A DNA stretch of 64,000 nucleotides from Cytobacillus sp. NCCP-133 (GTDB lineage: Bacteria; Bacillota; Bacilli; Bacillales; Cytobacillaceae). The notes under the pieces were generated by a model. It worked only from the letters and a program-made list of their open reading frames with translations, was not told the origin of the DNA and made no database searches. The stretch is from the NCBI RefSeq assembly GCF_026011715.1, contig NZ_BRVM01000007.1, forward strand, positions 57,678 through 121,677, given 5' to 3'. This document shows, in pieces, positions 1,419 to 60,330 of the stretch (positions within the stretch are counted from its first letter, which is position 1; each line of letters begins with the position of its first letter). The position numbers and the translations under genes are program-made.

Positions 1419-2804
1419 TTATAGGTTCTCGACAATTTTCCTTGCTGTCATTGACCCGTTGACAATGCAATCCGGTATGCCCACACCATAATAAGAACAG
1501 CCCGCAAGCCATACTCCCGGATAATCCTCAGAAATCTTCTTTTCTAAGGATGCTACTGTTTCGGGGTGGGAAATCAGGTAGTTTGGCATTTGCTCTGTCC
1601 AATTGGTCACCACGCTTGCCGCAGGCTCAGCAGTAATGCCCAAACTTTTTTCGATGTCAGCCAATGCAGCCTGAAGAAGCTCCTCCTCATTCATATCTTT
1701 TAGAGATGAGAAAGCAGGATGGCTGCTTTTATAAAATAACCTTACAAGCAAATTGCCGCTTTTGGATGTGTGCGCCCACTTCCTGCTCGTCCATGTGCAG
1801 GCATTGCATGTTAACTCTTCCGTATTCGCAGTAATGAAGCCTGTTCCATCTTCCGGAAGCTTGCTGTCCGGTAAATCATAAGCAACGTAAATGGAAATAA
1901 GCGAACTATTCTTCAAACGCCTAAACTCTTTCTTCAGTTCATGATCTGCGAATAAGTTTTCCGCTGCATTGTGCGGGATGCTGAGCACAATATGATCCGC
2001 TTCCATGCTTTCTCCATTTGAAAAATTCACTTTATAACGGCCAGCAGCTTTTTCGATTGACACCGCCTGGGTACTTTTTAATATCTCGGCATCACCCAAT
2101 TTTTCTTCGTAAATATTGATAAGCGAATCCAGTCCGTTTTTAAAAGAAAGAAATTTCTTTCCCTCTCCGCTCTGGAATGTCTTTTTATTTTCCTCAAAAC
2201 CTTTAATGATGCTCCCGTACTTTTCTTTATAATCGAACACCTGCGGAAGGGTTGAAGCAATTGTCAGGTCACTTAGATGACCGGAATAAACGCCCGAAAG
2301 CACAGGAGCGATTTGCTTTTGAACCAATTCTTTTCCGAAAAAATGCTCTAAAAATTCGCCGATGGAGTCATTTTTCGTAAAGCTCTCATTTTTTGTGTAA
2401 AGGTCCTTCAGTGCTTCAACTTTCCCTTCTGCTGACACTAAGGTTGACTTTACCAGAGATTCAACACTGGCAGGAATGCCGAATACAGAATCTGCAGGAA
2501 TCAGCTTCAGCCCGCCCTCCGTATAAATATATGATCGGCCAGCAGCATTATAAACGAGCTCCCTTTCCAACCCAAGCTCCTCAATAAAATTCATTTCATT
2601 CGCTTTGCGCGCAACAATGGAATCGGCTCCCGCTTCGATCACAAATTCGCCTTCCCTGACTGTCCGAATTTTCCCTCCAAGCTGATCAGAGGATTCGGCC
2701 AACACCAGCCTTATTTCATACCCATTTTCCTTTTTCCATTTATTCATTTCATACATGGCGGATAGACCTGTTACGCCTCCGCCTATGACCAATACTGTTT
2801 TCAC
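1419..2804 (-). CDS. hemY: Protoporphyrinogen/coproporphyrinogen III oxidase
   Basis: A 461-residue FAD enzyme of haem synthesis. In Gram-positive bacteria this HemY/CgoX protein oxidises coproporphyrinogen III to coproporphyrin III. The N-terminal dinucleotide-binding loop GGGVTG (residues 8-13) is followed by the GGKIRT and EAGADSI blocks typical of the oxidase family. The C-terminal GCSYYGVGIPDCI closes the FAD domain. Length matches the family. The gene is not next to hemE or hemH here, unlike the hemEHY operon of B. subtilis, so it may be a relocated or second copy. It shares a terminator with the opposing small gene. No regulatory site was seen upstream. Confidence 0.9.
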   Translation of the reverse strand: MKTVLVIGGGVTGLSAMYEMNKWKKENGYEIRLVLAESSDQLGGKIRTVREGEFVIEAGADSIVARKANEMNFIEELGLERELVYNAAGRSYIYTEGGLKLIPADSVFGIPASVESLVKSTLVSAEGKVEALKDLYTKNESFTKNDSIGEFLEHFFGKELVQKQIAPVLSGVYSGHLSDLTIASTLPQVFDYKEKYGSIIKGFEENKKTFQSGEGKKFLSFKNGLDSLINIYEEKLGDAEILKSTQAVSIEKAAGRYKVNFSNGESMEADHIVLSIPHNAAENLFADHELKKEFRRLKNSSLISIYVAYDLPDSKLPEDGTGFITANTEELTCNACTWTSRKWAHTSKSGNLLVRLFYKSSHPAFSSLKDMNEEELLQAALADIEKSLGITAEPAASVVTNWTEQMPNYLISHPETVASLEKKISEDYPGVWLAGCSYYGVGIPDCIVNGSMTARKIVENL

Positions 2805-58896: not shown

Positions 58897-59271
58897 CTAG
58901 AATAATTTATTGTTTATTTTCTCTTCGTAATTTTTAAAAATGGATGAATTCGTATTTTGCCTTCTTTTTGACATTATGCTATTAAACCGAAGCATTTTTT
59001 CATTCAGCTTCTGCTGAAGTTCTTTCTTCTCTTCACTGTTATTGCACTTTTTAATTAAGTCTTCGATCGTTAGCATTTCTTGCTTCATTTGGCTTTCTTC
59101 CTCAGTATAGCCTGCATTTTTCAGAATACGGTATGCCATCCTCAGATTTTCCGGCACTGATGCTAAATCATCGAAAGGCATTGGTTTGCCGTAGCCGGGC
59201 AAGTTTTCAAATTCTCCATTCTTGTATGCCCTTTTAATCCGGTCCTCCGAAATAATGGTAAACAAGTCCAT
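58897..59271 (-). CDS. DUF1992 domain-containing protein
   Basis: A 124-residue protein of DUF1992 (DnaJ homologue subfamily C member 28 family). The signature EDRIKRAYKNGEFENLPGYGKPM lies at about residues 9-31, followed by a helical region with RMAYRILKNAGYTEEE. There is no J-domain. Function in bacteria is unknown. GGGGGAACTGAACG precedes ATG. Monocistronic. Confidence 0.87.
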   Translation of the reverse strand: MDLFTIISEDRIKRAYKNGEFENLPGYGKPMPFDDLASVPENLRMAYRILKNAGYTEEESQMKQEMLTIEDLIKKCNNSEEKKELQQKLNEKMLRFNSIMSKRRQNTNSSIFKNYEEKINNKLF

Positions 59272-59361: not shown

Positions 59362-59389
59362 GAAAAAGAGGAAGCTCTTACTTCCTCCG
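59362..59389 (-). terminator. Terminator of the selenoprotein peroxiredoxin gene
   Basis: GAGGAAG pairs with CTTCCTC (59368-59387), followed by TTTTTCC on the minus strand. Confidence 0.8.
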
Positions 59390-59390
59390 T

Positions 59391-59978
59391 CTATATTTTC
59401 CCTATTAAATTCGGATCCCGGATGACTCCCGGCTGACCCGGCTGCCAATTTGCAGGCACTCCCTGCCCTGTCTGCTGCGCAAATTGAACTCCCTGCAGGA
59501 TTCTAACATGTTCATGAAGGTTACGTCCAACTTCCCCAGGATAAATTAATTTTGCAGCGATCACTCCATTTGGATCAATAAAAACAGAAGCTCTTACAGC
59601 TGCACCCGACTTTTCATCAAGTACCCGGTAGGCTCTGCTGATGCCATGTGTTCGATCGCTCACCATTGGATAGTTTACTTTTTTTAATGAAGGAGATGTT
59701 TCCTTAAATACTTTATGAGCGTATACACTATCCGTGCTAATGGACATCACTTCACAATTAAGTGCTTTTAAATATGGCTGAACAGCGGCGACCGCCGCCA
59801 ATTCTGTTGGTCAGACAAAGGTAAAGTCGCTTGGATAAAAAAAAAGCAATACCCATTTTCCCTTATAATTCTCCAGATTCACTTTCTTTATTTGGCTGTC
59901 TATAATGGCATCCGCTATGAATATGGGAGCACGATCTCCTCGTCCGGCACAAAAACCGGCCTCACTTTGCCCATTCAT
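59391..59978 (-). CDS. Selenoprotein peroxiredoxin (AhpC/Prx family, in-frame TGA = Sec56)
   Basis: A 195-residue peroxiredoxin if codon 56 (TGA, 59811-59813) is read as selenocysteine. The frame from ATG 59978 (GGGAGGG 8 nt upstream) gives a thioredoxin-fold start with [28 protein letters not shown], then U, then [12 protein letters not shown]. Sec56 is exactly at the peroxidatic position (usual FTFVCPTE). The rest is an intact AhpC-like chain with [20 protein letters not shown] and a C-terminal PANWQPGQ where a resolving cysteine is absent. A SECIS-like hairpin follows the TGA. A conventional gene finder would report only codons after the TGA, from about 59801. It probably reduces peroxides with thioredoxin-type donors. 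Confidence 0.88.
59771..59813 (-). promoter_or_regulatory. Bacterial SECIS element
   Basis: Directly after the UGA on the mRNA comes a 17-nt lead, then the apical loop GGUC closed by CGGC/GCCG, with an outer stem AACAG/CUGUU and an AAUUGG bulge. E. coli fdhF has the same GGUC loop about 18 nt after its UGA. The loop G and U are the SelB contacts. Confidence 0.8.
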
Positions 59979-60141
59979 TCACGATTCCCTCCCTTCAGCC
60001 TTCCTCTTCTGCTTTATATAAATATGCACATGAAGGAAAATATGAACGTAAAAAGAATGAAATTAGCTTCCATACATAGTCCTTAACCGCAGGGGAAAAA
60101 TAGTAAAAGATCGCAATTCTACTGAAGAAAGGGGCATGATC

Positions 60142-60330
60142 ATGTCACGTGGAGTACATTTCAACCATAAAAGAAAGCATCATCCAGGGAACTTCCCAGA
60201 ACTTACAATGGTAGAACAGCATACAACCGAAGCACAAGAAGACGAGGAATTAATTGTAACCCAGGAATCATTTAAAAACCGTTTTGAAGAAGATGAAGCA
60301 AAAGAGCTTGAGGATCGTGCAAAAGAATAA
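60142..60330 (+). CDS. Small charged hypothetical protein
   Basis: A 62-residue hydrophilic protein with a basic His/Lys-rich N-terminus (HFNHKRKHHPGNFPEL) and an acidic helical C-terminus (EEDEAKELEDRAKE). ATG 60142 follows AAAGGGG by 7 nt; an ATG two codons upstream is closer to the site. There is no known family to my knowledge. It has a good terminator. Short charged proteins of this kind are frequent in Bacillaceae and sometimes spore-associated, but nothing here proves it. Confidence 0.65.
   Translation: MSRGVHFNHKRKHHPGNFPELTMVEQHTTEAQEDEELIVTQESFKNRFEEDEAKELEDRAKE

Follow-up and report, generated by a model that had tools for sequence, protein, structure and literature searches.

The window analyzed here, a stretch of 64,000 nucleotides from Cytobacillus sp. 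NCCP-133, contains what reads as one peroxiredoxin gene interrupted by an in-frame TGA codon, raising the question of whether its host decodes this codon as selenocysteine (Sec). Based on sequence and comparative analyses, this gene is almost certainly a true SECIS-decoded bacterial selenoprotein, with Sec at residue 56 of a peroxiredoxin of the Prx1/AhpC fold. The following features are central to this reading.

59391 to 59978, minus strand: predicted gene for a Sec-peroxiredoxin of 195 residues (U56), running from an ATG to a TAG (translation with TGA as U; Pfam AhpC-TSA)
59811 to 59813, minus strand: TGA, predicted to be read as Sec, at the peroxidatic position (fetched family matches; alignment to the catalytic Cys of solved peroxiredoxins)
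59780 to 59804, minus strand: SECIS-like hairpin with apical stem GCGGC/GCCGC and GGUC loop (59785-59798) and a weaker lower stem (RNA fold, pair counts, fourfold-site constraint)
59987 to 59993, minus strand: Shine-Dalgarno-like GGGAGGG ahead of the ATG (sequence; GGAG in relatives)
60014 to 60049, minus strand: conserved upstream motif, GCATAnnTATATA with GTTCA upstream of it, a promoter candidate (upstream alignment within the genus)

A peroxiredoxin reading frame with a conserved TGA codon

The gene extends from an ATG at 59978-59976 to a final TAG at 59393-59391; its strand was absent from the original prediction. The 195-residue translation (MNGQ...FTFV-U-PTEL...IGKI) has a single interruption, the TGA at 59813-59811, corresponding to residue 56. 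The original prediction held that one continuous peroxiredoxin is encoded on both sides of the TGA and that the TGA replaces its peroxidatic Cys, and both claims hold. The Pfam domain AhpC-TSA matches residues 14-142, a region spanning the TGA, with 120.3 bits (cut-off 26), and two alignments place the TGA opposite the peroxidatic Cys of peroxiredoxins with solved structures. Moreover, the residues of the Pxxx(T)xx(C/U) motif and the conserved Arg are present as P49, T53, U56 and R129. An AlphaFold2 model based on an alignment of 38 sequences has a mean pLDDT of 91.4 and a pTM of 0.87, with residues 1-5 below 50, and a predicted helix begins at residue 55. All 50 PDB structure matches listed belong to the peroxiredoxin family. 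U was entered as C in the Pfam, alignment, AlphaFold2 and structure-match programs.

Ahead of the gene, GGGAGGG is present at 59993-59987, and GGAG occurs at the same place in all 11 upstream rows of relatives listed from an alignment of 18. The start codon differs among these relatives, and the ATG is a putative start. As anticipated for gene calling from about 59801, the mechanical open reading frame starts at a TTG at 59801, comprises 136 amino acids and loses the active site. The existence of this frame is what speaks for the TGA as a real stop, with the downstream part forming a separate small protein devoid of an active site. We consider this scenario very improbable because the stretches on either side of the TGA are conserved together as a single peroxiredoxin, because GGAG precedes the upstream start, and because carriers of the gene possess SelB, barring three fragmentary assemblies described below.

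TGA is also one base change away from either Cys codon, and a nonsense mutation or sequencing error (TGC/TGT to TGA) could have broken a Cys peroxiredoxin. The homologues make this barely credible. In a search of 193 genomes of the family, in which a strong match was defined as at least 210 bits, 99 strong matches were found in 96 genomes. The search output reports a TGA inside all 99, and a frame of at least 186 residues stays open around it in these matches. Among them, the 75 that were fetched (L016-L045, L078-L122) all have TGA at the Sec codon, giving 93 of 93 together with 16 named loci (L046-L061), L123 and the window gene; 14 of these 16 named loci are identical to a copy from the genome set across the hairpin and every residue downstream. 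The named-locus set comprises 32 loci, and L066-L068, L070-L075 and L077 are left out of the Sec-codon counts. Seven of the 99 matches have an extra stop near the match end, which in the four fetched (L094, L114, L116, L118) represents a shorter protein end. After the 99, the next-best family match scores 136 bits, and, among the matches listed below this score, none has a stop inside except a TGA-bearing PrxU-type protein in genome G007. In a search of 398 genomes of the phylum, 27 of the 28 loci fetched from beyond the family have TGA and one (L154) has TGC. Six more distant named loci (L062-L065, L069, L076) have TGC or TGT, and L013 gave no match when the Sec codon was read. Among the matches listed in the family and phylum searches, full-length Cys homologues reach 47% identity at most (in G432), and there is no Cys replacement among close homologues; L076 is a 48-residue Cys fragment with 50% identity. 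Instead of the TGC or TGT at 59811-59813 that a local error would imply, TGA is kept in homologues that are 55-90% identical. The Bacillaceae clade is in the Sec form in every copy read.

Selenocysteine machinery and the SECIS-like hairpin

The original prediction named its own refuting result, a lack of selA, selB or selC, and suggested a search for selD as well; the host genome (4.31 Mb in 62 contigs, completeness 99.96%) encodes all four. The tRNA-Sec scores 58.3 bits in Rfam (gathering score 47) and has a UCA anticodon (TCA by ARAGORN), while the other 20 tRNA-Sec matches in that search fall below the cut-off. As this cut-off was likewise exceeded in 5 of 14 control genomes, the anticodon matters. 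SelA matches with 471.6 bits in a frame of 507 residues, with E. coli and M. jannaschii as the matching controls; a second SelA match scores 73.4 bits. The SelB wing domain matches with 60.4 bits in a frame of 626 residues, and E. coli was the only control matching. SelD (L012/L127; 422.3 bits) has one in-frame TGA, in GUGCK, and is itself a candidate selenoprotein. By contrast, none of the nine FdhA matches in the host has a TGA and one has a TAA; the two above the cut-off (L157, L158) have no in-frame stop, although they reside in a Sec-decoding genome. Sec-FdhA is thus ruled out as the explanation of the Sec trait in this host, which must rest on other proteins. According to the available text of a 2006 survey, each selenoproteome includes FdhA or SelD (PMC1794560), and the host SelD fits this rule.

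Across the family, SelB is present in 170 of 193 genomes, i.e., in 93 of 96 carriers of the gene versus 77 of 97 non-carriers (Fisher p 2e-4, an indicative value as the genomes are related). The three carriers in which SelB was not found are fragmentary assemblies (G078 and G189, each 66% complete, and G145, 94% complete in 720 contigs), and none of the other 20 SelB-less genomes has a Sec-peroxiredoxin gene at 210 bits or more. Because 77 of the 97 non-carriers have SelB, the gene is not what maintains the Sec trait in the family.

A hairpin with a GGUC loop, which the original prediction placed at SECIS distance, does follow the TGA. Starting at the TGA, 42 bases fold with −12.6 kcal/mol into a structure of 10 pairs and a GGUC loop after 6 unpaired bases, and the GGUC loop is present in 66 of 69 distinct hairpins of the Bacillaceae clade. 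In 77 distinct coding sequences, 29 fourfold columns are near-invariant, and the five of them with the lowest entropy at the third base are codons 61-65 (0.24-0.99 bits versus 1.04-1.96 for the others). This pattern suggests constraint on these codons beyond the demand of the protein itself and supports the hairpin more strongly than covariation does. In the 60 sequences used for pair counts, the middle apical pair is G-C in 28, A-U in 27 and G-U in 5, and is broken in none; paired cells amount to 94.8% versus 92.0% in shuffles. The covariation score is 0.287 versus 0.226 ± 0.010 in shuffles, with 0 of 500 as high, and drops to at most 0.124 when the pairing is slid. Shuffles are not exceeded in pairs with two-sided changes (2; equalled or passed in 148 of 500) or in further pair types (9; equalled or passed in 499 of 500), and RNAalifold retains 7 pairs, one with a two-sided change. 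The apical-pair covariation mostly tracks clades, with 7 changes on the tree amounting to 2-3 independent pairs, for which an underpowered sign test is not significant. An Rfam search of 59385-60000 gave no match at E up to 1, and in the host genome a covariance model built from the hairpin hit this gene alone, recovering neither a selD element nor any second SECIS. This hairpin just downstream of the TGA is predicted to bind SelB.

UGA read-through exists in bacteria, and the codon could be read as another amino acid, e.g., Trp, with no use of selenium; this is scarcely plausible given that tRNA-Sec(UCA), SelA, SelB and SelD are present, that the position aligns with a catalytic Cys rather than a Trp, and that the hairpin is under constraint. 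Decoding of the UGA as Sec, as originally proposed for this host, is strongly supported by comparative evidence.

Locus, proposed catalytic cycle and significance

In the window, the gene is flanked by a gene at 58897-59271, which we take to be DUF1992-like, and by a small gene at 60136-60330, followed by a gene that, from its sequence, is presumably hutH. Matches to these three are found in 20 of 20 same-genus stretches fetched (L016-L035, L016 being the window's own). The DUF1992-like gene was sought in sixteen same-genus genomes that lack the Sec-peroxiredoxin gene at this site; it is present in nine, and the other seven are uninformative. In the nine, the two neighbors lie 89-174 bases apart, measured between match edges, versus 864 in the window, and there is no peroxiredoxin match between them at E 1e-3; in one of them (G050), the first neighbor gene is cut by a stop. 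Because the neighbors are close together with no peroxiredoxin match in nine of nine, the gene appears to be present or absent as a unit at this site. Two records with this locus, L048 (Paenibacillus sp. FSL R5-0490) and L052 (Pseudomonas sp. ISL-84), have ∼90% identity and the same neighbors, and their organism names look wrong.

Other copies are sited elsewhere. A second Sec-peroxiredoxin clade of 22 rows (SH-aLRT 97; L086, L088-L091, L093, L095, L096, L098, L099, L101-L103, L106-L108, L110, L111, L113, L114, L116, L117) lacks the neighbors of the window locus. G051 and G191 each have one copy of the window-locus type and one of the second clade, while G094 has one copy of the window-locus type together with L104 from a third small group.

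Upstream of the gene, GCATAnnTATATA is present in 10 and GTTCA in 9 of the 11 upstream rows listed from an alignment of 18. The motif at 60014-60049 was absent among the matches listed by a sigma-70 scan; as a candidate promoter, GTTCA...GCATAnnTATATA resembles sporulation sigma promoters. An upstream PerR box was considered and rejected, the best sites in 18 rows having 3-6 mismatches of 14.

All 77 coding sequences keep T53 and R129; at the P49 position of the PxxxTxxC/U motif, 56 of 77 have P. The position of the canonical resolving Cys, i.e., the Cys of GEVCP, aligns with V174 in the window gene and is V in 62, T in 8, I in 3, L in 2 and A in 2 of the 77 sequences, and Cys in none. The protein is accordingly not a typical 2-Cys peroxiredoxin or AhpC with a C-terminal resolving Cys. 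In 72 of 92 rows, a Cys is present in the N-terminal segment (C10 in the window gene). From these residues, the enzyme probably works as a one-Sec peroxiredoxin. We suggest that SelB with Sec-tRNA-Sec(UCA) would bind the GGUC-loop hairpin behind the UGA and insert Sec at residue 56, and that T53 and R129 would hold the selenolate as it reduces a hydroperoxide and becomes a selenenic acid. Because the canonical resolving Cys is absent, regeneration may depend on an outside thiol, e.g., thioredoxin or bacillithiol; alternatively, the N-terminal Cys may serve this purpose in members that have one. The proposed reductant, expression and role of the protein are putative.

Combining these elements, we tentatively entertain a broader scenario, which we regard as rather unlikely as a whole, in which approximately half of the genomes of a spore-forming family encode an obligately selenium-dependent, Sec-only subfamily devoid of a resolving Cys that acts in selenium-limited peroxide defense and is possibly expressed during sporulation, the latter because of the conserved upstream motif. 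If this scenario were true, selenium supply would limit peroxide defense in these Bacillaceae. Members of the family are mostly aerobic or facultative. That one Bacillaceae family has a Sec-peroxiredoxin in 96 of its 193 genomes searched contrasts with the available text of a 2026 review, according to which aerobic bacteria seldom keep selenoproteins owing to the cost of Sec in an oxidative setting (PMC13188914).

Relation to known peroxiredoxins

Neither Sec-peroxiredoxins nor selenoproteins of the Bacillales are new as a kind. In the texts accessible to us, the first description of PrxU is attributed to work on Eubacterium acidaminophilum (Soehling 2001, cited in PMC9312934 and PMC13188914), a 2016 survey counts 91 Sec-peroxiredoxins in 78 organisms (PMC5029168), and the 2006 survey lists three selenoproteins of three unnamed families for the Bacillales (PMC1794560). 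In the literature searched, no paper turned up on selenoproteins of Cytobacillus or Bacillus firmus or on selenoprotein peroxiredoxins of Bacillaceae, and the accessible portions of PMC9312934, PMC5029168, PMC13188914, PMC1794560, PMC2398784 and PMC7409299 do not describe the present clade; an earlier listing in survey supplements is possible. What the analysis adds is the extent of the Bacillaceae clade, its Sec-only state, its clean presence or absence, and its place outside the curated PrxU model.

The label PrxU in the original prediction is right as to kinship but not as to membership. In a quick tree of 107 rows, with SH-aLRT values but no bootstrap, with long branches and with an outgroup that does not fall on one side of a branch, 75 Bacillaceae rows group together with eight Sec forms of other Bacillota (SH-aLRT 97), apart from 18 NF040737-type PrxU rows (SH-aLRT 97). 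On the PrxU equivalog model NF040737, the window gene scores 173 bits, below the cut-off of 270, as do other clade members (159-180 bits for the window gene, L017, L093 and L109) and the sister-group members L130 and L131 (182 and 190 bits). Thus, the Bacillaceae clade is kin to clostridial PrxU but separate from it and outside the curated model. Because the clade scores below this model and the mechanical frame starts after the Sec codon, annotation of these genes is likely truncated or missing.

PrxU proteins have the same peroxiredoxin fold and a TxxU motif, and those of L123, L138, L141 and L153 likewise have no Cys where the canonical resolving one would lie. They differ in scoring 346-388 bits on NF040737 and in having a Cys at position 46, which is found in 0 of 77 sequences of the Bacillaceae clade; among non-family rows, 17 of 34 have a Cys at this position, of which six or seven are Cys peroxiredoxins (seven with L154). 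L123 itself (1465-2085, minus strand; 387.6 bits) is a clostridial-type PrxU gene with TGA in G007, a genome of the same family in which the family search gave no strong match of the Bacillaceae Sec clade; horizontal transfer is a possible origin.

The host's own AhpC has the same fold and catalytic motif and is 38% identical to the Sec-peroxiredoxin. It has Cys at both places (FVCPTE, GEVCPAKW), where the Sec-peroxiredoxin has Sec and Val, and the latter scores 159 on the AhpC model TIGR03137, below the cut-off of 272. In Sulfobacillus thermotolerans, likewise a member of the Bacillota, a protein named as a Sec-containing PrxU is raised in ore-grown cells according to the part of the report available, which was read as a sign of oxidative stress; the table of that report lists a thioredoxin peroxidase of 178 residues (PMC7409299). 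A further comparison is with the other Bacillota Sec-peroxiredoxins (L129-L131, L133-L136, L150), which come from other families and form the sister group in the tree. Their TGA falls at the same codon, and they are 42-54% identical to the window protein; their hairpin loops are CGUG in six of eight, AGUU in one and GGUC in one, whereas GGUC prevails in the Bacillaceae clade.
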